A DNA stretch of 64,000 bases from Rubrivivax sp. (GTDB lineage Bacteria; Pseudomonadota; Gammaproteobacteria; Burkholderiales; Burkholderiaceae_C): NCBI GenBank assembly GCA_016789955.1, contig JAEUPB010000018.1, positions 1 to 64,000 of the forward strand, read 5' to 3'. The position numbers and the translations under genes were made by a program. The notes under the pieces are model-generated. The model was given only the letters and a program-made list of their open reading frames with translations, had not been told where the DNA came from and searched no databases. How positions within the stretch are numbered: position 1 is the stretch's first letter; each line of letters starts with the position of its first letter. This document shows, piece after piece, positions 13,497-28,248 of the stretch.

Positions 13497-15083
13497 ATGG
13501 CATTGCTGATTGGAGTCCCGAAGGAAACGGCGCCCGGCGAGAAGCGCGTCGCCACCGTGCCCGAGGTGGTCGAGAAGCTGATCAAGCTCGGCTTCCGGGT
13601 GGCCGTGCAGAGCGGCGCCGGCGAAGCCGCGAACTTCGACGACGACGCCTACCGCGCCGCGGGTGCCGAGGTCATCGCCACCGCCGCCGACCTCTGGGCC
13701 GGCAGCGACATCGTCTTCAAGGTGCGCGTGCCCAGCGCCGACGACGTGGCGATGATGCGCGAGGGCGGTACGCTGATCGGCTTCGTGTGGCCGGCGCAGA
13801 ACCCCGAGCTGATGCAGCAGCTGGCGGCGAAGAAGGCCACCGTGCTGGCCATCGATTGCCTGCCGCGGCAGCTGTCGCGCGCGCAGAAGATGGACGCGCT
13901 GACCTCGATGGCCGGCGTCAGCGGCTACCGCGCGGTGGTCGAGGCGGCCAACGCGTTCGGGCGCTTCTTCAACGGCCAGATCACCGCCGCGGGCAAGATC
14001 CCGCCGGCCAAGGTGTTCATCGCCGGTGCCGGCGTGGCGGGGCTGGCGGCCATCGGCACCGCGGCCAACCTGGGTGCGATCGTGCGCGCCAACGACACCC
14101 GCGCCGAGGTGGCCGACCAGGTCACCTCGCTGGGCGGCGAGTTCGTGAAGGTCGACTACGAGGAGGAAGGCTCGGGCGGCGGCGGCTACGCCAAGGTGAT
14201 GAGCGAGGGCTTCCAGCAGGCCCAGCGCGAGATGTACGCCAAGCAGGCGCGCGAGGTCGACATCATCGTCACCACCGCGCTGATCCCCGGCAAGCCGGCG
14301 CCCAAGCTGATCACCGCCGAGATGGTGCGCAGCATGAAGCCCGGCAGCGTGATCGTCGACATGGCGGCCGAGCAGGGCGGCAACTGCGAACTCACCGAAC
14401 CGGGCCAGGCCGTCGTGAAGCATGGCGTGACGATCATCGGCTACACCGATCTCGCCAGCCGCCTGGCGCGGCAGTCGTCCACGCTGTACTCCAACAACCT
14501 GCTGCGCCTCACCGAGGAGTTGTGCAAGGCCAAGGACGGCGACGTCGACGTCAACATGGAAGACGACGCCATCCGCGGCCTCACGGTCGTCAAGGACGGC
14601 ACCGTCACCTGGCCCGCGCCGCCGCTGAAGCTGCCGGTCGCGGCGCCGAAGCCGAAACCGGCCGCGGCCGCGCCGGCGCCCAAGGGGCACGGCCATGGCC
14701 CCGCCGAGCCGATGTCGGCGCGGTCGCTGGCGACCGTGTTCGGCGTCGGGGCGCTGGCGTTCCTGCTCGTGGGCCTCTATGCGCCGGCCAGCTTCCTGTC
14801 GCACTTCACCGTGTTCGTGCTGGCCTGCTTCGTCGGCTACATGGTGGTGTGGAACGTGACGCCGTCGCTGCACACGCCGCTGATGAGCGTGACCAACGCG
14901 ATCTCGTCGATCATCGCGATCGGCGCGCTGATCCAGGTGGCGCCGCCGCTGGCAGGCGGCACCGTCGACCGGCCCAACGCGCTGATCCTCGGCCTGGCCG
15001 TGGTCTCGCTGGTGCTGACCGCCATCAACATGTTCGGTGGCTTCGCGGTGACCCGGCGCATGCTGGCGATGTTCCGCAAGTGA
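13497..15083 (+). CDS. pntA: Proton-translocating NAD(P) transhydrogenase subunit alpha
   Basis: A 528-residue alpha subunit, close to the 510 of E. coli PntA, so domain I (NAD-binding) and the membrane part are fused rather than split into PntAA/PntAB. Residues ~1-375 show the alanine-dehydrogenase-like N-terminus ([14 protein letters not shown]) and the dinucleotide motif [21 protein letters not shown], here in two parts at ~178-198. A Lys/Pro/Ala/His-rich linker (~378-408) precedes four membrane helices (~415-525). The ATG at 13497 follows AGGGGA; an upstream in-frame start would add 24 atypical residues. Operon with pntB, 16 bases on. Confidence 0.96.
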
Positions 15084-15099
15084 CGAGGGCCGACCCACC

Positions 15100-16518
15100 A
15101 TGACCGCAAGCCTCGCCACCGTCGCCTACATCGGCGCCACCATCCTCTTCATCCTCAGCCTCGGCGGGTTGTCGAACCCCGAGACCGCCCGCCGCGGCAA
15201 CCTGTTCGGCATCATCGGCATGGCCATCGCCGTGCTCGCCACCGTGCTCGGCCCGCGCGTCACGCCCGGCGGCTACGCGTGGATCATCGGCGCGCTGGTC
15301 GTCGGCGGCAGCATCGGCCTGTACGCCGCGAAGACGGTGCAGATGACGCAGATGCCCGAGCTGGTGGCGCTGATGCACAGCCTCGTCGGCCTGGCCGCGA
15401 GTCTCGTGGGCTACGCCAGCTACGTCGACACCTCCACCGTGTTCCCGACGCCGGCCGAGAAGGCCATCCACGAGGTCGAGATCTACGTCGGCATCCTGAT
15501 CGGCGCGGTGACGTTCTCCGGATCGATCATCGCGTTCGGCAAGCTGTCGGGGAAGATCGGCGGCAAGCCGCTGCTGCTGCCCGCGCGGCACTGGCTCAAC
15601 CTGGTCGGGCTGCTGGTGGTGATCTGGTTCGGCCGCGAGTTCCTGCACGCCGAGACCATCCAGGCCGGCATGACGCCGCTGATCGTGATGACCGTGGTGG
15701 CGCTGCTGTTCGGCGTGCACATGGTGATGGCCATCGGCGGCGCGGACATGCCGGTGGTGGTGTCGATGCTCAACAGCTACTCGGGCTGGGCCGCCGCGGC
15801 CACCGGCTTCATGCTGAGCAACGACCTGCTGATCGTCACCGGCGCCTTGGTGGGGTCGTCGGGCGCGATCCTGTCCTACATCATGTGCCGCGCGATGAAC
15901 CGCAACTTCATCAGCGTGATCGCCGGTGGTTTCGGCACCGGCAGCGGCGCACCGGCCGCCGGTGCGGGCGGCGCGGCGCAACCGGCCGGCGAGGTGTCGC
16001 CGATCAGCGCCGTGGAGACCGCCGAGCTGCTGAAGGACGCCAAGAACGTCATCATCGTGCCGGGCTACGGCATGGCGGTGGCCCAGGCGCAGCACACGGT
16101 GTTCGAGATCACCAAGATGCTGCGCGAGCGCGGCGTCAACGTGCGCTTCGGCATCCACCCGGTGGCCGGCCGCATGCCCGGCCACATGAACGTGCTGCTG
16201 GCCGAGGCCAAAGTGCCGTACGACGTCGTGCTCGAGATGGACGAGATCAACGAGGACTTCCCGCAGACCGACGTGTCGATGGTGATCGGCGCCAACGACA
16301 TCGTGAACCCGGCCGCGCAGGACGACCCGACGAGCCCGATCGCCGGCATGCCGGTGCTCGAGGTGTGGAAGGCGCGCACGTCGATCGTGATGAAGCGCAG
16401 CATGGCCAGCGGCTACGCCGGCGTCGACAACCCGCTCTTCTACAAGGACAACAACCGCATGCTGTTCGGCGACGCCAAGAAGATGCTCGACGAAGTGCAG
16501 GCTGCGCTGAAGGCCTGA
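15100..16518 (+). CDS. pntB: NAD(P) transhydrogenase subunit beta
   Basis: A 472-residue beta subunit (usual ~460). The N-terminal ~260 residues carry about nine membrane helices; the C-terminal ~190 residues are the NADP-binding domain III with [13 protein letters not shown] (~325-337), [18 protein letters not shown] and [10 protein letters not shown]. With PntA it couples hydride transfer between NADH and NADP to proton movement, mainly supplying NADPH. Its stop codon directly abuts the stop of the convergent regulator gene with no spacer. Confidence 0.96.
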
Positions 16519-19308
16519 TCAGCCCTGGTCGCAGGCCAGCTGCGTCGCCTGCGCCGGGGTCAGCGACCCGCCGGCGATCCACAGCGCTTCCGTGCGTGCC
16601 GCACCGAGCGCGAGGCGCGCCAGCCGTCGGGTGCGGCGGCGCTCACGCAGGTCCGAGCGACCGAGCGAGCCGAAGTGCTCGCGGTAGTAGCGGTCGGCGA
16701 ACGAGAGCAGCCGCACCGCGTCCTCCGCGCGGCCCAGCATCGCCAGCGTTCGCGGCAGGTTCCACAAGCCGTAGAACCACTCGCGCCAGGCATTGATCGC
16801 CCAGGCCTCGCGGATGCATCGGCGCGAGGACTCGGCCGACTCCACCCAGCGCCGCCGGTCGGCCAGCGCATAGCCCTGGATGCTGCTGCCGAACAGCGCG
16901 ATGCGGCGCAGCCCGCGCGTCTCGGCCAGCGGGATCGCCTGTGCGAGCAGCTCGAGCTGTTCTTCGACGCGCCGGCGGAAGCCCAGCGCCAGCGACAGGT
17001 TGACCATGCCGACGATCGCGCGGTGCTCCAGGCCACCGGCGCGCCAGACCTGCAGCGCATGGCGATGCAGGCGCTCGTTGCGTTCCAGGTCGCGGGCGCC
17101 GTTCATCTCGATCACCGACATCAGCGACGTCGCCGTGGCCTCGATGTCGGCCAGGCCCAGCGCGCGCCCCAGGGCCGCGGCTTCCTCGGCCAGCGGGCGG
17201 GCACCCTCGATGTCGGCGCGCACGCGCACGCGCAGCCGGGCCGCCACGCGCAGCGCCAGCGCGCGCGTCGGCGGCGGCATCGCCGGCGGCCCGATCGCGG
17301 CGCGCAGCGCGGCCTCGGCTTCGGCCAGCGCCGCCTCGCCGCGCCCGCTCTCGAACAGCTGCTCGGCCAGCAGCGCCTGCGCGGTCACCGCCGCGGGGGT
17401 GCCGGCGCGCTGGCGCACCGCGGCAGCCACGCCCTCGAGCGCCTGGGGTGGCAGCACCACCTCGTGCAGGGCCTGCGCGGCATCGACGATCAACGCCAGT
17501 GCATCGTCTGGCGTGCCGTCGGCGATCGCGCTGGCCAGGGCCGCCACGATGTTGGGCACCTCGATGCGGAACCGACGGAGGTCCGGCGATGGTCCCAGCG
17601 TCGCCACCAGGCGGCGCATCGCGTGCCGGTGGGCGGCGGCGAGTTGCCGCAGCGTCGCGCCATCGGTCAGCGACAGCACCACTTCGCGCACGGGCTCGAA
17701 CGGCTGGTAGCGCGTGCCACCTTGCCGCGAGCCGATGGTGCGCACCACCGAGTGGGCGACGAGGGCGTCGAGGTCGTCCAGCAGCGCTTCCGGCACCGGC
17801 CGCGCCGGCGAGGTGCCCGGCACCGCGACCACGTCGGCCAGCCGGTCCGCCGTGGCGCCGCCGCGGAACACGGACAGTGCCAGCAGCGTGCGGCGCTCGC
17901 TGGCGCTGAGCAGCGCGTGGCTCCAGAGCACCACCGAGCGCATCGAGGATTGCCGTTCGCCGGCGTTGCGTGCCTGCCCGCGCCGTTCGAGCACGTCGAG
18001 GCCGTCGTCATCGGCATGCGACCGCTCCCCGCGCACCGCCATCGTCTCGGCCTCACCGCCGAGGCGGGCGAGCAGTTCGCCGGCCGACAGGGCCCGCAGC
18101 CGCGCTGCCGCCAGTTCGAGCGCCAGCGGCAGCCCTTCGAGGCGGCGTGCCAGACTCGCCAGCGCCTCGGCCTCGTCGGCGTCGGGCGCGTAGCCCGGCC
18201 GCACCGCGCGGGCGCGCTCGACCAGCAGTGCCAGCGCGGGGTTGCTGACCAGTTGCGGGCCCGCGCTGCACGGCTCGGGCAGCGGCAGGCCGGCGACCAC
18301 CACCTCGTGCTCGCCGTCGATCTGGAGCGCCCGGCGAGAGGTCACGAGCAGGTGGAGTTCCGGCAGCCGTGCGAGCCAGTCCGCCAGCGCCGCCGTCGCG
18401 GTGGTGTCGAGTTGCTCGCAGTTGTCCAGGACCAGCAGCGTGCGGCGTCCGCGCAGTGATGCCGCGACGCCTTCCAGGCCAGGCACCGACGGGCCGCCGC
18501 CGGCGGCCTGCAGGGCCAGCATCAAGGCGTCGACCATGCCGTCGGCGCTCGTGCAGTGCACGAGGGGCACGAACACGACACGCTCGAAACCGTCTGCCCA
18601 TGCGACGTCCGCGGCCGCGACCAGCGTGCGCGCGACTTCGCTGGCCAGCCTCGTCTTGCCGCTGCCGCCGGGGCCGCGCACCGTGACCAGCCGCCGTTCG
18701 AGGACCACCGAGCGCAGCTGTGCCGCCACGTCGTCGAGCCCGTAGGCCCGCGTCAGGTAGCCGGGCAGCCCGATGGCCTGGCCCGGGGGCGGCCGGCCCG
18801 GCGTCGGCCGGCGGGCCGGGGCATCCGGATCGATGGCTGCGCGCAGGTCCTGCAGCTGGCCGCGACGCTCGACGACCCAGTCGTCGTAGTGCCCCGGCAT
18901 GAACTCGCCGCGGTACAGCGCCGCGGCGGCGGGGTCGCCCGCGCGGGACAGGGCCTCGAACTCCGGCACGTCGCAGGCCAGCGTACCGGGGCGCACGCGC
19001 ACCGTCAGTCGGTCGGCTTCCAGCACCGGCTCCGTGCCGTCTCCCCCGAGCAGTCCGCGCAGCGTCGACAACGCCTGCCGCAGCCGGTTGCGGCCGGCGT
19101 CCGGGGCACTGCCGGGCCACAGCAGTTCGACCAGTTCCTCGCGCGCGTGCGCACGCTGCGGCTCCAGCGCCAGCCGGGCCAGCAGCGCGGCCACCGCGCG
19201 GGTGGGCCAGCGTTGCACGGTGCGCCCCGGCCCATGGGCTTCCACTGCGCCGAGCAGTCGCACCTGCCAGGCCGCAGCCGTGCGCCGGGCGGGTTCAGGC
19301 GGGCCCAC
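16519..19308 (-). CDS. SARP/AfsR-like transcriptional regulator with NTPase and TPR-like region (copy 2)
   Basis: A 929-residue multidomain protein. Residues ~15-110 form an OmpR-type winged helix as in Streptomyces antibiotic regulatory proteins (WPTRAVAALLARLAL, AREELVELLWPGSAPD, RNRLRQALSTLRGLL); ~112-160 is a shortened BTAD-like segment. A STAND/NB-ARC-type ATPase follows: Walker A GPGGSGKTR at ~212-220, Walker B TLLVLDNCEQLD at ~305, and LLVTSRRALQIDG. The C-terminal ~400 residues are Ala/Leu/Arg-rich helical repeats, probably TPR. No C-terminal LuxR domain is seen. The GTG start overlaps the upstream paralogue's end by 14 bases, implying coupling. Signal and targets are unknown. Confidence 0.82.
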   Translation of the reverse strand: MGPPEPARRTAAAWQVRLLGAVEAHGPGRTVQRWPTRAVAALLARLALEPQRAHAREELVELLWPGSAPDAGRNRLRQALSTLRGLLGGDGTEPVLEADRLTVRVRPGTLACDVPEFEALSRAGDPAAAALYRGEFMPGHYDDWVVERRGQLQDLRAAIDPDAPARRPTPGRPPPGQAIGLPGYLTRAYGLDDVAAQLRSVVLERRLVTVRGPGGSGKTRLASEVARTLVAAADVAWADGFERVVFVPLVHCTSADGMVDALMLALQAAGGGPSVPGLEGVAASLRGRRTLLVLDNCEQLDTTATAALADWLARLPELHLLVTSRRALQIDGEHEVVVAGLPLPEPCSAGPQLVSNPALALLVERARAVRPGYAPDADEAEALASLARRLEGLPLALELAAARLRALSAGELLARLGGEAETMAVRGERSHADDDGLDVLERRGQARNAGERQSSMRSVVLWSHALLSASERRTLLALSVFRGGATADRLADVVAVPGTSPARPVPEALLDDLDALVAHSVVRTIGSRQGGTRYQPFEPVREVVLSLTDGATLRQLAAAHRHAMRRLVATLGPSPDLRRFRIEVPNIVAALASAIADGTPDDALALIVDAAQALHEVVLPPQALEGVAAAVRQRAGTPAAVTAQALLAEQLFESGRGEAALAEAEAALRAAIGPPAMPPPTRALALRVAARLRVRVRADIEGARPLAEEAAALGRALGLADIEATATSLMSVIEMNGARDLERNERLHRHALQVWRAGGLEHRAIVGMVNLSLALGFRRRVEEQLELLAQAIPLAETRGLRRIALFGSSIQGYALADRRRWVESAESSRRCIREAWAINAWREWFYGLWNLPRTLAMLGRAEDAVRLLSFADRYYREHFGSLGRSDLRERRRTRRLARLALGAARTEALWIAGGSLTPAQATQLACDQG

Positions 19309-22096
19309 CGGACGTCAGCGCGAGGCGCAGCGCCGCCGACTGCGACAGCGCCCGCCCGGCCAGCATCAGGGCCTCGGCCCGTGCACCGCCGAGCCGCCGC
19401 CGCAGCATGCGCCGGGCGCGCTTGACCTCGCGCGCCTCGATGCGGTTCAGGCGGGGGAACAGCCGCTCCCAGTGCAGCACCGCGTAGCCCTGCAGTCGCG
19501 CGGCCGCTTCGGTATCTGCGTCGCTGCCGTGCAGCAGCGCCTCGGGCAGGTGCAGCAGGCCATGCGCGATGCCCTGCATCAGCTCCTGCTCCGCGGCGAT
19601 GCGCAGCGACGTGCGAAAGGCCTCCACCGCCTCGGCGAACCGTCGCAGCCCTGTCAGCACCCGGCCATGCTGCCGCGTCGTGTGCATCAGCCCGGTGGCG
19701 TCGCCGGCCTCGCGCATTTCCGAGAGCACGTCACGGAAGCCGGCCAGCATCTCCTCGATCTGGCCCCGCCCGGCCCGCAGCAGCAGGAGGTTGACGCGCG
19801 AGACGCGCGCCATGTCGCGCTGCCCGATGCGCTCGAACAGGACCTGCGCACGTGCCGCCAGCGTCTCGGCCTGCGCGAAGTCCAGGCGCAGGTTGCAGGC
19901 GATCAGCGTGCGCACGCGCAGCACGATGGCCAGCGCGCCGGGCGCGTCGGCGGCCTCGGCGCAGCGCTCGGCCTCGTCGAACCGGGTCTCGAAGTCGGCG
20001 TCGTAGCGGCCGTCGAAGTAGGCCGCCCAGGCCCAGCGCGCCAGTGCCAGGCTGCGCCGACGCAGATCCGGCGCCGTCTCGATGGCGAGCTGGGCCTGCC
20101 GCACGGCCTCGGACGAATGCCCCGCGTTGCCTTGTGCGCAGGACAGGAACTCGTGGCCGTCGCTGCGCAACGCGGCGGGGATCCCTGCGGCGGACAACGC
20201 CTCTTCCAGCGAGGGCAGGATGGACGGCGGAATGTCCGCGTGATCCCAGTGCGGCCGGCGCGCCAGCGCCAGCTGCAGCGACTCGCGGCCCTCGCCGTCC
20301 GCGATGCCGCCGGCGATGGCGGCGTGCACGAGGGCGCCGTGGTCCGCTGCGCCCGGGGCGTCGGGGTCCGCCCCGCGCGGCACCTGTTCGATCAGCCAGC
20401 GTCGCACCCGTCCCCGGGCCGCGCGAGCCTCGGCCGGGGGCTGCTGCTCGATGGCGAACTCGCGGACGGGCTGCAGGAGGGTCCAGCGTGTGGCCTGCCG
20501 TGCGTCGGTCGTGCGGCGGACCAGCGAAAGGTCGTGCAGCGCCGCGAGGTGGCGCAGGACCTCGGCCTCGCCCAGGCCCGCCGCGGCCGCGATCACGCCC
20601 AGCGGTGCCGGTACGCCGAACGTCGACAGCGCCTGCATCACGCCGCGCTGGGCCGGCGTGAGCAGCGTCCAGCTCCACCCCACCACGTGTCGCATCGATG
20701 CGTGTCGCGCCTGGGAGCCCGACGCGGGCGGTGCGTTCCGCGCCAGCAGGTCGAGCGCCGCCGAGCGCCTGCCGCTCAGGTGCTCGAGCAGCTCGGCGGG
20801 GGACAGGCTGCGCAACCGCGAGGCCGCCAGCTCGATGGCCAACGGCATGCCGCTGAGCAGCCGCACGATGCCGGCCACGGCCTCGCGATTGGACGCCTCG
20901 AGAGTGAACGCGTCGACGACGGCGCGGGCCCGGTCGACGAACAGCGCCACCGCCGGGCTGTCGGCGGCCTCGGCCGGAGGCGCGGCGGCCGGAGGCAACG
21001 GCAGCCCGTGCAGTTCGAAGGCCCGCTCGCCATCGACACCCAGCAGGCGCCGCGACGTCACCATGAGGTGCAGCCGCGGCAGCGCCGCCAGCAACTCGGT
21101 GAGTGCCGAGTCGGCCTGCGCATCCAGTTGCTCGGCGTTGTCCAGCACCAGCAGCGCCGCGCGGCCGCTGAGTGCGGCGTGCACGCGCGCTGCGGCATCG
21201 GCGCCTGCAGTGGCCCCGAGGGCGGTGGCCACGGCCTCCAGAGTCTGCTCGGCCGTGGTGCAGGCCAGCAGGGGCACGAAGACCACCACCTCGAACGGGG
21301 CGTCGGGCGCGCTGCCCATGGCTGCAGCCGCGCGCGCGGCCAGCCGCGTCTTGCCGCTGCCGCCGGGGCCGTGCACGGTGACGAGGCGCTCGACCTGCGC
21401 GCGGTCCTGCAGCCGCGCGGCAATGTCCTCCAGGCCGAAGGCGCGCGTCAGGTAGCTGGGCAGGCCCCTGGGCGCCTGGGACGGGGCCCAGTCGGCGGGG
21501 GCGTGTCCGGTGCCGAGGAGCGGCCGTGCCGACGGGATGGGTTCGGCGGCCAGCCGATCGTGCAGCCCGGCCAGCCTTTCGCGTTCGGCGATGACCCAGT
21601 CGTCGTAGTGACCCGGCATCAGCGCACCCTGGTAGGCGGCGCGGGCGGCGGCGGCGTCGCCGCGCCGCACGTGGCGCTCGAAGTCCACCGCATCGCAGGT
21701 CAGCGCGCCGGGCCGCACCCGGATGGCGATGCGGTCGGTCAGCAGCACCGGTGGATCGCCGTCGCGCTCGAGCAGGCCCTTCAGCGTGGACAGGGTCTGT
21801 CGCAGGCGGTTGCGACCGATGTCGGGCGCAACGCCCGGCCAGAGCAACTCGACCAGCTCCTCGCGGGCATGCGACCGGTGCGGCGCCAGCGCCAGCTGCG
21901 CCAGCAGCGCGGCCACCGCCCGCGTGGGCCAGCGCACGATGCGCCGGGTCGCGGCATCGGGGTCCCCGATCGGCTCGGCATCGACGGCACCGAGCAGCCG
22001 CACGCGCCAGCCGGCACGTGCAGCCTCCTGCGCATGTGCGCCGTCGCGGGCCTCGGCTGCCTCCATCGAGGGCGCAGCATAGCCGCCACCGCCCAT
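19295..22096 (-). CDS. SARP/AfsR-like transcriptional regulator with NTPase and TPR-like region (copy 1)
   Basis: A 933-residue paralogue of the next gene, with the same order: winged helix (~40-130; WPTRAVAALLAQLAL, AREELVELLWPGVAPD), short BTAD-like part (YQGALMPGHYDDWVIAERERL), ATPase with Walker A GPGGSGKTR (~235) and Walker B LLVLDNAEQLD, then helical repeats. The two copies are alike over their whole length, so they come from a tandem duplication that has since diverged. ATG at 22096 or 22066 are both possible; neither has a good ribosome binding site. It lies 105 bases downstream of the PEP-CTERM gene on the same strand, suggesting joint control. Confidence 0.82.
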   Translation of the reverse strand: MGGGGYAAPSMEAAEARDGAHAQEAARAGWRVRLLGAVDAEPIGDPDAATRRIVRWPTRAVAALLAQLALAPHRSHAREELVELLWPGVAPDIGRNRLRQTLSTLKGLLERDGDPPVLLTDRIAIRVRPGALTCDAVDFERHVRRGDAAAARAAYQGALMPGHYDDWVIAERERLAGLHDRLAAEPIPSARPLLGTGHAPADWAPSQAPRGLPSYLTRAFGLEDIAARLQDRAQVERLVTVHGPGGSGKTRLAARAAAAMGSAPDAPFEVVVFVPLLACTTAEQTLEAVATALGATAGADAAARVHAALSGRAALLVLDNAEQLDAQADSALTELLAALPRLHLMVTSRRLLGVDGERAFELHGLPLPPAAAPPAEAADSPAVALFVDRARAVVDAFTLEASNREAVAGIVRLLSGMPLAIELAASRLRSLSPAELLEHLSGRRSAALDLLARNAPPASGSQARHASMRHVVGWSWTLLTPAQRGVMQALSTFGVPAPLGVIAAAAGLGEAEVLRHLAALHDLSLVRRTTDARQATRWTLLQPVREFAIEQQPPAEARAARGRVRRWLIEQVPRGADPDAPGAADHGALVHAAIAGGIADGEGRESLQLALARRPHWDHADIPPSILPSLEEALSAAGIPAALRSDGHEFLSCAQGNAGHSSEAVRQAQLAIETAPDLRRRSLALARWAWAAYFDGRYDADFETRFDEAERCAEAADAPGALAIVLRVRTLIACNLRLDFAQAETLAARAQVLFERIGQRDMARVSRVNLLLLRAGRGQIEEMLAGFRDVLSEMREAGDATGLMHTTRQHGRVLTGLRRFAEAVEAFRTSLRIAAEQELMQGIAHGLLHLPEALLHGSDADTEAAARLQGYAVLHWERLFPRLNRIEAREVKRARRMLRRRLGGARAEALMLAGRALSQSAALRLALTSGGPA

Positions 22097-22166
22097 TCCG
22101 GGCGTGGCGCCAGGTCGCAGCCGCCCCCGCGTCTCGGTGGCGGCTTCGCCCGAGTGTGCAACCTTG

Positions 22167-22192
22167 CTCGCTGCGCGGGCGGCCGCAGCGAG
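22167..22192 (-). terminator. Hairpin after the PEP-CTERM gene
   Basis: A perfect 9-bp stem (CTCGCTGCG / CGCAGCGAG) with an 8-base loop starts about 10 bases beyond the stop of the PEP-CTERM gene. It is followed on the minus strand by CAAGGTTGC, not a T tract, so it may attenuate rather than end transcription into the regulator pair. Confidence 0.4.
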
Positions 22193-22201
22193 GCGGGCCG
22201 G

Positions 22202-25200
22202 TCAGTGCGTGAGCGTGCGCTCGCGGCGCCGCCGCGCCACCAGGGCTCCCGCCGCGGCACCCAGGATCAGCACCAGCGTGCCCGGCTCCGGCACCGGGCC
22301 GCCACCGCCATCGACGACATTGGCGCGGATCAGCAGGCGGCGCACCTGTCCGAGCCCGGTCGGGTCGCTGGGGTTGATGCCCAGGCCGTTGAAGACGATC
22401 GTGTCCTCGTGCGCCCCGAGCGCGGTGAAGTTGATCGTCAGCCCGCCGATGCCCTCGCCGGCCGCCAGCGCGGTGGCGATCGGGCCCCAGCCGGTGTAGC
22501 CGAAGTCGTCGGCGCCGCTCAGGTCGAAGCTGCCGGTCAGCGCGTCGGCAGGGCCGGCGACGTCGTTGTCCAGGCCCAGCACCACCGAGAGGCCGCCGCC
22601 GAGCGTGATGGTGCCGAGGTCGAGCACGTAGTCGGTGCCGCTCTGCGTCAGCACGCCGGCCCCGGCGAGCTGGTCGAAGTCGGCGTTGGCGAGGTTGTTG
22701 ATGGTGGCCAGCACGCGCACGCCTTCGTCGGCGCCGCCGCTGGCATCGGCCATGTCGGGGTTCTGGCTCAGGTAGCCGATGGTGCCGCTGCGGTCGACGA
22801 GGCCGGCCGCCGTGGTGTTCAGCCCCACCGAGAAGGCGGCCGCCGCGCCGGCGCCCAGGCCGGTGATCGGGCTGCCGCCCTGGATCACCGGGCCGCCGAT
22901 CGTCGACAGGTCGGCGCGCAGGGTGTCGTTCAGCGCCGTCGCCGCCGCGGTGTTGGTCACCGTCACGTTGCGTGCCGCCACGGTGTCGCCCACGCGCACG
23001 GTGCCGAAGTCGACCGTGCGGCCGGTGGCGCTGCCGGTGGCCGGCGTGTAGACGCGCGACTGCACGTCGATCATGCCGGTGGGCGTGGTGGCCGCGATGT
23101 CGGGTGCGCCGGTGGTGCCCGCGCCGGTGGAGACGAACGCGAGCTGAACGCTGCCGCTGCCCGCGCCCGGCGTGGCCGTGCTCGCCAGGCCGACCCGGAT
23201 CGAGGTCGCGTCGGTGCCGCCGGCGGCGAGATTGGCGATGCTGCCGCCGTTGTGCTGCGCGTTGCCGCTGGCACCGCTGACCGTCGCCTTCAGGCCTTCG
23301 GTGTAGATGTCGGGCGAGACGTTGGTGAGCGTCACCGGACGCGAGGCGGCCACGGCGTCGCCGACGCGTGCGGCGATGGTCACCGTGCCGGTGCTGATCT
23401 GCGGTTGCGCCAGCCGGTACACCGCGCCGGCAAGGTTCACGGCCTGGCTGGGCAGACCGAGTTCGCAGGTGGTCCCGCAGCCGCCGATGTTGCTCGCATC
23501 GGAGATCCACGAGATCGTCGCGCCGCCGCCGATCGGCCCGGCCGGCGCGGCGCCGCTGACGCCGATGCTCATCGCGGTGCTGGTGGCACCGGGCAGCAGC
23601 GCGGTGATGCTGCCGGCGGTCGTCACCGGCGCGCCGGTGCCGCTGATCGTGCCCTTGAGCTGCGCCTGGTCGCCGCCCACGGCCTGGTTCAGCACGCTGA
23701 GCGACTGGCTCGTGGCGGTGCCGATGCGCAGGTTGCCCAGGTTCACCGTGACCGCCGAGGGACTGAGGATGCCGTTGGTCACCGGCTTGGCGGTGGCGAT
23801 CACGGTGGCCTCGATGTTGCCGGTGACGGCGTAGTCCTCGCCGCCGCGGGCCAGCAGGCCCAGGCCGTTGGAAACGCCCGCCACCGCGCCGGCACTGGTG
23901 TAGTTCACGCGGATCGAACCCGCCACAGAGCCCACCGCCGAGGTGTCCACCGAGACCGTCATCGCGCCCGTGCCGGTGGTGGTGCTGGTGGTGCCGCCGC
24001 GCACCCCGGCGATCGAGCCGGCACCGAGAATGCGAGTGTCGGTGGCCGAGCCGAACGCCGCGTTCAGGTCTTCGACGTAGCCGCCGGCGCCGGTGGCGAT
24101 GTTGCCGATCACCAGCGGCTGGCTGACCACCTGTCCCACCTGCACGGTGCCGAAGTTCAGCGGCGCCGTGACGATCTGTCCAGTCGCAGGCTGGTACACA
24201 TTGCCCGACACGCCCACGCCTTGCGTGCCGGCGGTGATCTCGGCCAGGCCCGGGATCGCCGCACCGGCCACGGTGCCTTGCGAGCGGTACTGCAGGTTCA
24301 CGGTGCCGCTGCGGTTGCCCGCGGCCGTGGTGTCCACGCCGACGGTGATCGCGCCGCTGCCGGTGCCGCTGGTGCCGGCCTGCCGGTTGACGATGGTGCC
24401 GCTGCCCGTGACGAAGCCGGTGACGCTGGAGACGAGCGCCTTCAGGTCCTCGACGAATCCACCCGGGCCGCTGGCGGTGTTGGTCACTGTGAGCGTGGTG
24501 CTGGCCGTGCCGCCCACGCGCTGGTTGGGCAGCGTCACCGGAGCCGTCGCGTCGCCCGTGGCCGGCACGTAGGCGCCAGCACCGGCGCCGACCACGATGT
24601 TCAGCTTCTGGTCGGGAATGTTCTCGAAGTTGCTGCGCAGGTTCAGCACCTGGCCCGTCAGCGGGGCGATGGCACCGGGCGTCGCCGTGGCGAAGGTCAC
24701 CGCGAGATCGCCGCTGGAGCCGCCGGGCGCGCCGGCGTTGTAGTTCGACGCCGTGACGCCGCTGCCCGACAGCCGCGGGTCGGTGAGGTTGCCGCCGTTC
24801 ACCGAAGTCTGGATCGCACCGCGCAGCGTGGGGCCGGTGGTGCCGGCGTTGGCCACCTGGTAGTTGAACGTGGTGGGCGTGCCCACGCGCACCGCGCCGA
24901 TGGTCAACGTGGCGCTGGTGGTGGTGCCGCCGGTGACGCTGCCGCCGGTGATGACCTGCGCCGCGTCGCCGCCAGCCACGACTTGCCCGGTGCCCGTCAC
25001 GCCGGCGCGACGGTTGAAGCTGTTGCCGCTGCCCGCGCCGATGTTGGTGTAGTCGTTCGAGATCGTCAGGTTGCCGTTGCCGACGTGGATCGCCGATCCG
25101 GCGGCGCCCATCGCGAGGCGACCTTGTGCGTTGCCGCCGTTGGCCAGGTTGATCGTGCCGCCCGGATCAGACTGCAGCGTGCCGGTGCCGCTGACGTTCA

Positions 25201-27229
25201 CGCCGAAGTTCAGCGAGCCGCTGGAGGCCCGCAGCAGCCCGTGATTGACCACTGCGGAGTCGACCAGCGAGATCGCACCACCGCTGTCGGCGTGGATGGT
25301 GCCGAGGTTGACCAGCGTCTGCGTGCCGGCGATGTTGATCTGCTGGCCGATGGTGCCGCTGTGGCCGCGCACGGTGACGTTCGCGCCGAACGTGGTGGTG
25401 CCGTTGCCGTCGAGGTCGATGCGGTTTCCGCCGCCGGTGCTGCCGAGCACGATGGCTCCGCTGCCGCTGACGGTCTGCGTGTCCTCGAAGCTGAGGATGC
25501 CGTTGCCGTTGAGGTTGATGAGGCCGTCGACCACGAGGCCATTGTTCACCCGCTCCCGGGCTCCCCCGCCCATGTCCAGCGTGCCCGTGATGCGCGTGGC
25601 GTCGAGGTAGTTGGCCCCGCTCCCGTTGGGGCGCACCGCACCCGTACCGCCCGACGCGATGGTGCCGCCGGTGACGCGCACGCCTTCCAGCGTCACGACG
25701 CCGCCGTCGCCGAGGATGGTGCCGGTGCCCGACTGCGTCACGTTGCTGCGCAGGGCCAGCGTGCCGCCGTTGCGGGCTTCCAGCGTGCCGTTGTTGGTGA
25801 CCGCCGACTGCATGATCGAGATCGTGCCGCCGGCGGCGTCGGCCGAGATCAGGCCGTTGTTCACCAGCGTCTGCGTGCCGCTGATGTTGATCTCCTGGCC
25901 GATGGTGCCGTTCTGGCCGCGCACGACGACGTTGGGGCCGAAGGTGGTGGTGCCGTTGCCATCGAGGTCGAGGCGGTTGCCGGCGCCGGTGGCGCCGAAG
26001 ACGATCGTGCCGCTGCCGCCCAGCGTGCCGTTGCCTTCGAAGCTGAGGATGCCGTTGTTGTTGATGTTGATCGTGCCGCCCGACAACGTCATGCCGTTGG
26101 CCACGCGCTCGCGGCCCCCACCGGCCAGGTCCAGCGTGCCGCTGAGCGTGACGGCGTCGAGGAAGCTCGTCGAACTGCCGCTGGCGCGCAACACGCCGCC
26201 GCCGGCGGTCGTGATCGTGCCGCCGGTGATGCGCGAGCCGTTGTGCAGCACCACGCCGGCGGTGTCGGCGTGGATCACCCCGCTGGCGGTCTGTGCCACG
26301 TCGGTGTTGAGCACCAGCGTGCCGCTGTTGCGCGCTTCGAGGATGCTGCGGTTGTCCACCGTCGAGCCCGTGAAGGAGATCGTGCCGCCGCTGGTGTCGG
26401 CGGAGATCAGCCCGAGGTTCTGCAGCACCTGGGTGCCGCCGATGTTGATCTCCTGGCCGATGGTGCCGCTGTGGCCGCGGATCGTGCTGCCGGCGGCCAG
26501 CGTGGTGGTGCCCGTGCCGTCGAGGTCGAAGCGATTGCCCCCGCCGGTGCTGCCGAAGACGAAGGTGCCGTTGCCGGCGATCGTCTGCGTGCCTTCGAAG
26601 CTGAGGATGCTGTTGCCGTTGATGGTGACCACGCCGGTGCCGCCGAGCGTGATGCCGCCGGTCACGCGCTGGCGGCTGCCGGGGTTGCTCGACATGTCCA
26701 TCAGCCCGTTGAGCGTGACGCCCGACAGGAAGTTGGCGCTGCTGTTGAACACCGTCAATGCGCCCGTGCCGCTCGTGCCGATGGTGCCGCCGGCGATCGT
26801 GCCGCCGAACTGATTCAGCGAGCTGCCGTTGCCGATCGAGATGAGGCCGCCGGTGTTGGTGATGTTGTGACCACCATTCATCTGCAGCGCCGCCGTGGAG
26901 GCGCCGCCGACGTTGATCGTGCCGGTGTTCGTCGTGCCGCCGCCGCCGGCGAGGCTGAGCAGGAAGGCGTCGAGGTTCAGCGTGCCGGCGTTGCCCAGGT
27001 TGCGGATGGCCTGCGCGGTGTCGATGGTCACCGTGCGCGTCAGCGCGATCGTGGCGTCGTCCGCCGCACCCGGCACGATGCCGCAGGACCAGTTGGCCGC
27101 CGCGCCCCAGTTGCCGCTGGTCGGCAGCCAGGTGCACGAGGCGGCGTGCGGGGTGACGGCGGGCCAGGCGGCCAGGGCCAGCGCGATGGACGTGGCGAGG
27201 GCATTGCGGCGCTGCGGTTGTCGGCTCAT
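22202..27229 (-). CDS. Giant repeat-rich PEP-CTERM surface protein
   Basis: A 1675-residue secreted protein. A signal peptide (residues ~1-30, RR near the start, core SIALALAAWPAVTPHAA) is followed by a short domain with WLPTSGNWGAAANWSCG. Three ~185-residue repeats (~147-700), rich in Gly, Thr, Asn and Ser, look like a beta-helix; each carries variants of GNR(F/L/I)DLDGxGTTT and SGTIGQ(E/Q)INI. From ~780 there are about five looser repeats of choice-of-anchor-D type (FGTVQVGQVV, FGTVRVGDTV, NLGNLRIGTA). The C-terminus is a PEP-CTERM sorting signal: VPEPGTLVLILGAAAGALVA then RRRRER. Such proteins are processed by an exosortase, which is not encoded here. Likely an exopolysaccharide-associated adhesin or matrix protein (inference). 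Confidence 0.88.
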   Translation of the reverse strand: MSRQPQRRNALATSIALALAAWPAVTPHAASCTWLPTSGNWGAAANWSCGIVPGAADDATIALTRTVTIDTAQAIRNLGNAGTLNLDAFLLSLAGGGGTTNTGTINVGGASTAALQMNGGHNITNTGGLISIGNGSSLNQFGGTIAGGTIGTSGTGALTVFNSSANFLSGVTLNGLMDMSSNPGSRQRVTGGITLGGTGVVTINGNSILSFEGTQTIAGNGTFVFGSTGGGNRFDLDGTGTTTLAAGSTIRGHSGTIGQEINIGGTQVLQNLGLISADTSGGTISFTGSTVDNRSILEARNSGTLVLNTDVAQTASGVIHADTAGVVLHNGSRITGGTITTAGGGVLRASGSSTSFLDAVTLSGTLDLAGGGRERVANGMTLSGGTININNNGILSFEGNGTLGGSGTIVFGATGAGNRLDLDGNGTTTFGPNVVVRGQNGTIGQEINISGTQTLVNNGLISADAAGGTISIMQSAVTNNGTLEARNGGTLALRSNVTQSGTGTILGDGGVVTLEGVRVTGGTIASGGTGAVRPNGSGANYLDATRITGTLDMGGGARERVNNGLVVDGLINLNGNGILSFEDTQTVSGSGAIVLGSTGGGNRIDLDGNGTTTFGANVTVRGHSGTIGQQINIAGTQTLVNLGTIHADSGGAISLVDSAVVNHGLLRASSGSLNFGVNVSGTGTLQSDPGGTINLANGGNAQGRLAMGAAGSAIHVGNGNLTISNDYTNIGAGSGNSFNRRAGVTGTGQVVAGGDAAQVITGGSVTGGTTTSATLTIGAVRVGTPTTFNYQVANAGTTGPTLRGAIQTSVNGGNLTDPRLSGSGVTASNYNAGAPGGSSGDLAVTFATATPGAIAPLTGQVLNLRSNFENIPDQKLNIVVGAGAGAYVPATGDATAPVTLPNQRVGGTASTTLTVTNTASGPGGFVEDLKALVSSVTGFVTGSGTIVNRQAGTSGTGSGAITVGVDTTAAGNRSGTVNLQYRSQGTVAGAAIPGLAEITAGTQGVGVSGNVYQPATGQIVTAPLNFGTVQVGQVVSQPLVIGNIATGAGGYVEDLNAAFGSATDTRILGAGSIAGVRGGTTSTTTGTGAMTVSVDTSAVGSVAGSIRVNYTSAGAVAGVSNGLGLLARGGEDYAVTGNIEATVIATAKPVTNGILSPSAVTVNLGNLRIGTATSQSLSVLNQAVGGDQAQLKGTISGTGAPVTTAGSITALLPGATSTAMSIGVSGAAPAGPIGGGATISWISDASNIGGCGTTCELGLPSQAVNLAGAVYRLAQPQISTGTVTIAARVGDAVAASRPVTLTNVSPDIYTEGLKATVSGASGNAQHNGGSIANLAAGGTDATSIRVGLASTATPGAGSGSVQLAFVSTGAGTTGAPDIAATTPTGMIDVQSRVYTPATGSATGRTVDFGTVRVGDTVAARNVTVTNTAAATALNDTLRADLSTIGGPVIQGGSPITGLGAGAAAAFSVGLNTTAAGLVDRSGTIGYLSQNPDMADASGGADEGVRVLATINNLANADFDQLAGAGVLTQSGTDYVLDLGTITLGGGLSVVLGLDNDVAGPADALTGSFDLSGADDFGYTGWGPIATALAAGEGIGGLTINFTALGAHEDTIVFNGLGINPSDPTGLGQVRRLLIRANVVDGGGGPVPEPGTLVLILGAAAGALVARRRRERTLTH
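25125..26791 (-). repeat. Three in-gene tandem repeats of about 555 bp
   Basis: Within the PEP-CTERM gene the string GATGTTGATCT (plus-strand reading) recurs near 25332, 25883 and 26441, and the surrounding ~555 bp is similar at DNA and protein level each time (about 185 residues per unit). Spacings of 551 and 558 bp show small indels between units. The outer limits given are approximate. Confidence 0.75.
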
Positions 27230-27274
27230 CTCCAGCTCCCTGTGGGACTCACTGGAAGTGACGATGGCAAGCCG

Positions 27275-27303
27275 CCGTCTGCTGACCGTTAACCCATCGT
27301 TAA
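27275..27303 (-). promoter_or_regulatory. 11-bp-period direct repeats, candidate SARP operator
   Basis: On the minus strand, heptamers TTAACGA, TTAACGG and CAGACGG follow each other with exactly 4-base spacers, so each starts 11 bases after the last. They lie 46-74 bases before the PEP-CTERM ATG. Known SARP regulators (ActII-ORF4, DnrI, AfsR) bind heptamer direct repeats with this period near the -35 position. A convincing -10 box was not found. Confidence 0.45.
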
Positions 27304-27377: not shown

Positions 27378-27938
27378 CTATTTCGGGGCGGAGGCGCCCG
27401 CAGCCGAGGGGTCGATCGTCACGCCGCGGCGCTTGAGTTCGTCGATCACCAGGCGGGCGCTCGGGTTGCCGCCATCGGCGAGCCGCTTGGTGTCGGCGGC
27501 CAGCGTGTCCAGCGCCTGCCGCAGCTGCGAGGAGCGGGCGTACGGCTGTTCGAGTTGGGTGCGCAGGCCGGCCAGCGACTGCCGGTCGCGTTCGAGCTGC
27601 CACGTGTGATAGCCCATCCAGACGAGCCAGGACGACGCCAGCAGCAGCAGCGGCCAGAACGCGCTGACGGAGCCCGCGGGCGCGGCGTCCATGTCTTCTG
27701 CCAGGTCGTCCACCGCCTCGTCTCGGGGCATGCGGCGCGGGCGATCCACGGTCTCGACGGGTGTGTCGTCGAGCGAGGAGGACGGCAGCGGCATCTGCGG
27801 GTCCAGCGGCATCGTCGGGGGGCCGGGGTCGATGGGCGCTCCGAGGGGCATCGCAGAGGAGTCGACGGCGGACGGAGCCGACCCGTCGCCAGGCCCTCCC
27901 GACATCCGCGGGGGCACGATCACGCGCTTGGTCACCAT
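27378..27938 (-). CDS. Single-pass membrane protein of unknown function (larger of a pair)
   Basis: A 186-residue protein not recognised as a named family. Residues ~1-85 are Pro/Gly/Asp-rich and probably disordered. One membrane helix ([20 protein letters not shown], ~88-107) is followed by a charged coiled-coil region and a C-terminus with [10 protein letters not shown]. The ATG at 27938 is chosen over a TTG at 27959 because AGAGGTGA lies just ahead of it. It starts four bases after the smaller gene upstream, which has a similar helix and a similar GVT-containing C-terminus, so the two look like relatives working together. Confidence 0.7.
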
Positions 27939-27942
27939 GTCG

Positions 27943-28248
27943 TCACCTCTTCGCGCCAACTGGCGGCGCAGGGGGCGGGACCTGCGAGGCCCCGGGCGCC
28001 GTGACGCCGTGCTTCTGCAGCATCGCGCGCAGCGCGTCGTCGTTCTGCCGCGCCGCGAGCTCGGACAGCGCGCGCACGATCTCGCGGTACAGCGTCTCGA
28101 GCTGCAGCGACTGCTGCACGAACTGCTGGCGCTGCGACACCTCGGCCTGCACGCCGCGGTTGTGCGTCAGCAGCGCGATGTTGGCCGCGGTGGTCACCAG
28201 ACCCAGCGCGGCCACCGCGGTGACGATCCAGAACTGGAGCTTGCTCAA
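27943..28248 (-). CDS. Small single-pass membrane protein of unknown function (smaller of a pair)
   Basis: A 101-residue protein with a TTG start. The TTG is strongly supported by GAGGAGG seven bases upstream; the ATG/GTG-like frame further upstream lacks such a site. Helix [20 protein letters not shown] (~6-25) is followed by a coiled-coil-like part ([20 protein letters not shown]) and a C-terminus with [10 protein letters not shown] and a Pro-rich tail. It shares layout and the L-x-x-x-GVT motif with the following gene. It lies 135 bases downstream of uvrA in the same direction. Confidence 0.68.

Follow-up and report, generated by a model that had tools for sequence, protein, structure and literature searches.

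The window analysed here, which is the whole stretch of 64,000 nucleotides at the start of contig C28 (assembly of 5.26 Mb in 116 contigs, completeness 79.6%), carries a gene for a giant PEP-CTERM protein and, behind it, two genes for AfsR/SARP-like regulators, REG1 and REG2. We predict that these bind an 11-bp repeat before the giant gene and likely activate its transcription, a reading to which we give a probability of about 0.7. The locus would be one instance of a circuit found repeatedly in the genus and family, where a regulator is paired with a gene for an exported protein, often a PEP-CTERM exosortase substrate. Its members would share a SARP-type promoter in which two heptamers lie one helical turn apart and the 3' one is 8 bp from a poor -10 hexamer. 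The features of the window are:

15100-16518, (+): pntB, encoding NAD(P) transhydrogenase beta and convergent with REG1
16519-19308, (-): REG1, 929 aa, same architecture as REG2 by alignment (ORF, Pfam, alignment)
19295-22096, (-): REG2, 933 aa, SARP-like winged helix, three-helix BTA remnant, STAND ATPase and helical repeats (ORF, Pfam, AlphaFold2)
22202-27229, (-): giant PEP-CTERM/choice-of-anchor-D protein, 1675 aa (ORF, NCBIfam matches)
27261-27266, (-): weak -10-like hexamer CATCGT (sequence and the geometry rule of PMC10936776)
27275-27281, (-): degenerate third heptamer CAGACGG, another 11 bp on (sequence)
27286-27303, (-): predicted operator, heptamers TTAACGA (27303-27297) and TTAACGG (27292-27286) (sequence, relatives)
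27378-27812, (-): smallB, about 144 aa, with a single predicted membrane segment (found with giants in relatives)
27943-28248, (-): smallA, about 101 aa, with a single predicted membrane segment (found with giants in relatives)

Open reading frames and domain matches bear out what the earlier note had described, a 1675-residue PEP-CTERM protein with two same-strand SARP/STAND-type regulator genes behind it; the ORFs of REG1 and REG2 overlap by 14 bp. The giant contains five choice_anch_D stretches (NCBIfam, E 2e-35), and its C-terminus matches PEP_CTERM TIGR02595 at 22.3 bits, above the cut-off of 16, while the Pfam PEP-CTERM score (19.5 bits) is slightly below the cut-off of 20.7. The N-terminus is hydrophobic by inspection, and the features of an exosortase substrate (signal peptide, PEP motif, hydrophobic segment and basic end) are present. 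As the source genome also has two exosortase genes (PF09721, E 3e-76 and 4.5e-64), we regard the giant as a predicted exosortase substrate, which may serve in a surface matrix.

Both regulators match AAA_22 and NACHT above the cut-off, and REG2, not REG1, also matches NB-ARC and AAA_16. The winged helix (Trans_reg_C) stays below the Pfam cut-off in both, and neither matches BTAD up to E 1. The BTAD profile was discarded as a route to the family: it matches 13 other places in the genome, the two REG genes not among them. The AlphaFold2 model of REG2 (mean pLDDT 87.2), whose domain names are our own reading, comprises a winged helix (residues ~30-134) followed by three helices (135-183), then an ATPase-like part that starts near 222, a further part resembling a winged helix (~466-551) and, at 554-928, helical repeats. 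In a full-length fold search, AfsR and EmbR were absent from the best 50 matches, which were filled by STAND and repeat proteins. Because the search was swamped in this way, the N-terminal domain was modelled alone, and for residues 1-205 AfsR and EmbR came top in both Foldseek and VIA, clearly above other OmpR types. A sequence profile matched EmbR at E 0.0036 and AfsR at E 0.067. REG2 thus has an N-terminal OmpR-type winged helix in the SARP arrangement (in the model of residues 1-205) and, as in AfsR-type large SARPs, a STAND/NOD ATPase followed by TPR-like repeats (Pfam, model and fold matches); of the complete seven-helix BTA domain, the model shows three helices.

Compared with AfsR of Streptomyces coelicolor and the large SARPs (SARP-NOD-TPR), REG2 differs in that its BTA part stops after three of seven helices and gives no BTAD match, that its host is betaproteobacterial, and that the targets of the family are predicted exported proteins. 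Since the BTA part is truncated, the way in which AfsR holds sigma could not be fully copied; we nonetheless predict a SARP-like mode of action without a full BTAD, within a circuit that is real and recurrent. On the model of AfsR and MalT, ATP and a ligand would have to bind before the DNA-binding part is freed from an inactive state imposed by the STAND ATPase and repeat superhelix. As regards MalT and the Rap/NprR peptide sensors, repeat folds readily give high Z, and the DNA-binding domain of MalT is of a type other than the winged helix of REG1 and REG2. A role in defence was considered and dropped, PADLOC giving one weak match for REG1 and none for REG2.

Relatives of REG2 (E<=1e-60) were found in 18 of 250 sampled family genomes and 32 of 81 genus genomes, and relatives of the giant (E<=1e-30) in 7 of the 250. 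The neighbourhoods of 73 regulator rows, representing 72 distinct genes, were read over as much as 20 kb. A PEP-CTERM gene lies at most three genes away in 36 of the 73, as the immediate neighbour in 21; the other 37 have none at this distance, partly owing to contig ends. With the PEP-CTERM density of every genome taken into account (48 genomes, 1480 sites), 3.1 of 71 regulators would be expected to be PEP-linked and 35 were observed, the density being taken from TIGR02595 at E<=0.05 and the observed count from a looser C-terminal pattern. Calls by this pattern had an NCBIfam PEP-CTERM-type match (E<=0.01, some below cut-off) in 7 of 9 cases tested, the exceptions being L074 and L084; L074, the partner on contig C115, is below the Pfam cut-off. 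Five loci on the same contigs as G-genome loci (L028, L029, L031-L033) and L077 were left out of linkage and pattern counts, and L030 and the duplicate L170 gene out of the density comparison. Many regulator loci end at contig ends, related genes are non-independent, and our home-made gene caller may misplace starts and missed L083 and the regulators of L096 and L194.

The earlier note had proposed searching relatives for the same three-gene order, PEP-CTERM gene then two regulators. It is found again in G046, as one of several arrangements (regulator then PEP-CTERM gene; PEP-CTERM gene, smallA, smallB, then regulator; convergent; divergent), and a fixed three-gene unit is rejected. The broader claim of a single locus made of regulator, PEP-CTERM gene and SARP-geometry operator holds insofar as linkage and operator recur in relatives, and is tempered by the half of the regulators that have no PEP-CTERM gene within three genes.

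Before the giant gene, the heptamers TTAACGA, TTAACGG and CAGACGG that the earlier note had picked out are present with steps of exactly 11 bp, and the repeat lies 57-74 bp upstream of the gene. SARP promoters have 11- or 22-bp direct repeats with the 3' repeat 8 bp from the -10 (PMC10936776). In the window this spacing is obtained only via the degenerate third heptamer: CATCGT lies 19 bp past the second heptamer and 8 bp past the third, and a lone nAnnnT match easily arises by chance. Because this hexamer is one helical turn farther downstream than in relatives, the window promoter fails the strict pattern used below, and we read it as a three-repeat promoter.

In the 64-kb window, YTARCGN5YTARYGG has a single occurrence, and none of 100 dinucleotide shuffles contains it; as the site was already known when the pattern was made, it is the relatives that carry the weight. 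There, the element stands before all 10 readable regulator-linked giants, the window's included, and in the nine others the nAnnnT hexamer 8 bp on is GATGCT (twice), CATCCT, CAAGCT, GAACAT, GACTCT, GAAGCT, CACAGT or GAACCT. Within the 1.67 Mb of loci, the core TARCG-N6-TARYGG is present 23 times, in 21 cases upstream of genes in regulator loci; the remaining two are at the giant of G027 and at L081, where no gene was called behind it. That the window heptamers are mere chance, as their discovery by eye and the displaced -10 might suggest, is hardly credible given the 10 of 10 giants and the absence of the core from 100 window shuffles. We regard the repeat as a well-supported predicted operator.

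A CGAACG variant stands before small PEP-CTERM genes convergent with one regulator clade. The strict pattern, which covers the YTARCG and CGAACG forms and includes the -10, lies upstream of 22 of 34 linked PEP-CTERM genes versus 1 of 788 remaining genes, with 10 of 312 other neighbours and 3 of 27 unlinked PEP-CTERM genes also positive. Ten of the 34 promoters had defined the motif, and without them 13 of 24 are positive, the small-PEP promoters having been inspected before the pattern was widened; 12 of the 34 lack it. Of the three positive unlinked genes, L194 adjoins an uncalled regulator, and L101 and L102 lie no more than about 3 kb from BTAD genes. The strict pattern precedes none of 71 regulator genes, and direct autoregulation via the operator is rejected; a regulator that follows its target gene in the same orientation, as in the window, could still gain positive feedback by read-through.

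The earlier note had named as counter-evidence a related giant without the regulators or the repeat. The giant of G139 lacks both: this genome gave no regulator match at E<=1e-60, and the 220 bp read upstream of the giant contain no repeat. The giant of G027 has the repeat, 508 bp before the called, probably too late, start, and this genome carries its regulator on a different contig. For the giants of G142 and G205, the DNA read around them contains no regulator.

A profile built from 21 YTARCG sites was run on the 81 genus genomes with stricter filters and gave 46 matches in 23 genomes, at first 21 of 32 with a regulator and 2 of 49 others. One of these two, G265, does carry a regulator, whose match was split and hence missed at E<=1e-60; in a recheck covering 10 of the 49 regulator-negative genomes, this brought the figures to 22 of 33 regulator genomes versus 1 of 48 without. 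Eighteen matches fell in contig stretches already covered and 28 were new places. All 28 are intergenic, and each is followed, no more than 450 bp on, by a gene start in the same orientation; these sites, like the 22 of 34 linked PEP-CTERM genes, show the SARP spacing between repeat and -10. Within the source genome (E<=2), the profile found the giant locus (0.026, a training site), C115 with a third regulator (0.43, not a training site) and C37 (1.6).

A different protein, for instance an OmpR/PhoB-type response regulator, might own the repeat, with the STAND proteins acting elsewhere. OmpR/PhoB-type boxes are also 11-bp direct repeats, the winged helix of REG2 is itself of OmpR type with many OmpR-type domains matching at lower Z, 11 of 33 regulator genomes have no profile match, and the G289 match comes without a regulator. 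We nevertheless consider this unlikely, since operator and regulator both co-occur across genomes (22/33 versus 1/48) and adjoin each other, and since base 2 of the heptamer changes with the recognition helix of the regulator. At position 96 (REG2 numbering), near the start of this helix, regulators next to YTARCG operators have N, and the eight next to CGAACG-like operators have A (six) or S (two); none of the 16 heptamers of these eight has T at base 2. Exceptions among N-type regulators affect base 2 of one heptamer, with G in L165 and L170 and A in L094, L099 and L165. As the A/S group is one clade, the covariation is supportive, not proof.

If REG1 and REG2 own the repeat, they might instead repress the giant until the ATPase and repeat part releases them on a signal. 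The repeats overlap the -35 position, where a bound protein could block polymerase, and only three of the seven BTA helices are kept. Yet the repeats are placed and spaced as at SARP activator sites (PMC10936776), and the -10 hexamers of relatives are poor, with no consensus sigma-70 promoter in a scan of the region (0 found, 0.1 expected), as in activator-dependent promoters; we judge repression a little less probable still than ownership by another protein, and activation the better reading. A terminator scan found 2 against 3.2 expected.

A sigma-54 route, RpoN with PrsK/PrsR, could also drive the giant and make the linked regulators incidental: pepA of the related organism Aquincola depends on RpoN1 (PMC9850573). 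A simple -24/-12 pattern, however, precedes none of 34 linked PEP-CTERM genes, the giant included, against 1 of 27 unlinked and 4 of 788 other genes, which makes this route very improbable. PrsK-PrsR/RpoN resembles the predicted REG circuit in controlling a PEP-CTERM gene and differs from it in being a two-component system that acts at a sigma-54 promoter.

The 'duplicated pair' of the earlier note, taken as a recent tandem duplication, is not borne out by the tree, which places REG1 and REG2 in two old lineages. REG1 belongs to a four-member clade whose other three regulators each precede an orthologous giant, and REG2 to an eight-member clade in which three members follow a giant with smallA and smallB in between. 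As the clades differ, the window unites two lineages on one giant; found singly beside orthologous giants elsewhere, they may here provide two inputs to one surface protein. Linkage to PEP-CTERM genes is scattered over the tree and does not mark a single clade, since the 22 label changes equal the shuffled mean of 21.9.

Products behind the new operator sites include giants, small PEP-CTERM proteins, glycine-rich lipoprotein-like proteins, subtilases, and caspase-domain, beta-lactamase-family and ~210-aa secreted proteins (Pfam scan of ten proteins, nine of them operator targets). When misplaced starts are allowed for equally in targets and controls, an N-terminal hydrophobic segment is found in 26 of 28 new targets versus 514 of 1236 control genes; if starts are taken as called, 17 of 28 new and 34 of 52 of all targets are predicted to be exported versus 547 of 1421 controls. 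Many operator-bearing genes encode predicted exported proteins without PEP-CTERM.

SARP-STAND proteins are best known from actinomycetes, and to our knowledge such a pair with an exosortase substrate is little described. Among open-licence full texts with the best-matching titles, none dealt with PEP-CTERM genes under SARP-STAND regulators or with an operator of this kind. Closest comes GSU1771 of Geobacter sulfurreducens, called a SARP-family regulator; in biofilm of the mutant, the epsH exosortase is up and three PEP-motif substrates are lower, about -2.2 to -3.3 (PMC10599522). It resembles the REG family as a regulator called SARP outside actinomycetes and tied to PEP-motif substrates, and differs in being described there with a receiver domain, with no STAND/TPR part, operator or gene linkage mentioned. 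Within the literature searched, as far as these sources extend, the one demonstrated case of control of exosortase/PEP-CTERM genes concerns a sigma-54-dependent gene, and GSU1771 gives a hint of another.

Here, a kind of regulator known mainly for controlling antibiotics would switch on genes for surface and secreted proteins. This would be a second control route, with a readable operator from which surface and secreted protein regulons could be called in these bacteria, and the SARP promoter code would have been carried from actinomycete antibiotic control to Gram-negative surface proteins. The naturally short activation domain would make testable which part activation needs. We give even odds to a wider proposal, that betaproteobacteria of this group have a dedicated SARP-STAND surface network in which paralogous regulator-target switches, serving PEP-CTERM and further exported proteins, share one promoter grammar, helix and operator variants insulate them, and a three-helix activation domain engages RNA polymerase without the sigma-4 seat of AfsR.

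SmallA and smallB lie upstream of the giant in the window and behind it in relatives. Counting the window, relatives of smallA stand beside giants in 12 distinct loci, and at three of these (L079, L080, L082) the DNA read contains no regulator. Relatives of smallB are in 12 loci; in eleven a giant is adjacent, and the twelfth (L124) is a short contig. Loci of the two outside the window include L076, L079, L080, L082, L148, L150, L152, L172-L174 and L197. They go with the giant, not with the regulator, and their co-conservation suggests that they probably help its export or assembly.

Some further observations concern single families and places. In the source genome, two PEP-CTERM genes (L101 11994-12719 and L102 6629-7705) have operator-like 11-bp repeats of other sequence and lie no more than about 3 kb from BTAD genes, a hint that this genome has further SARP-PEP pairs. 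A gene for an exported 533-aa protein in G289 is preceded by a good operator match (L259, 4264), and only generic STAND proteins were found in that genome. A secreted family of about 210 aa with NGWW/NGGWYP-like ends, without a Pfam match in the one member scanned, stands behind the operator in six places in several genomes (L233, L255, L258, L260, L264, L266), as do Peptidase_C14 (caspase-domain) proteins with predicted signal segments at L234 5658-7127 and L262 13163-14503. Finally, pntB is a neighbour that we do not think part of the circuit; regulators of the REG family are recurrently convergent with it or within three genes of it (window 13497-16518; L030, L084, L150, L170, L171, L172, L182, L183, L186), a position common to relatives.
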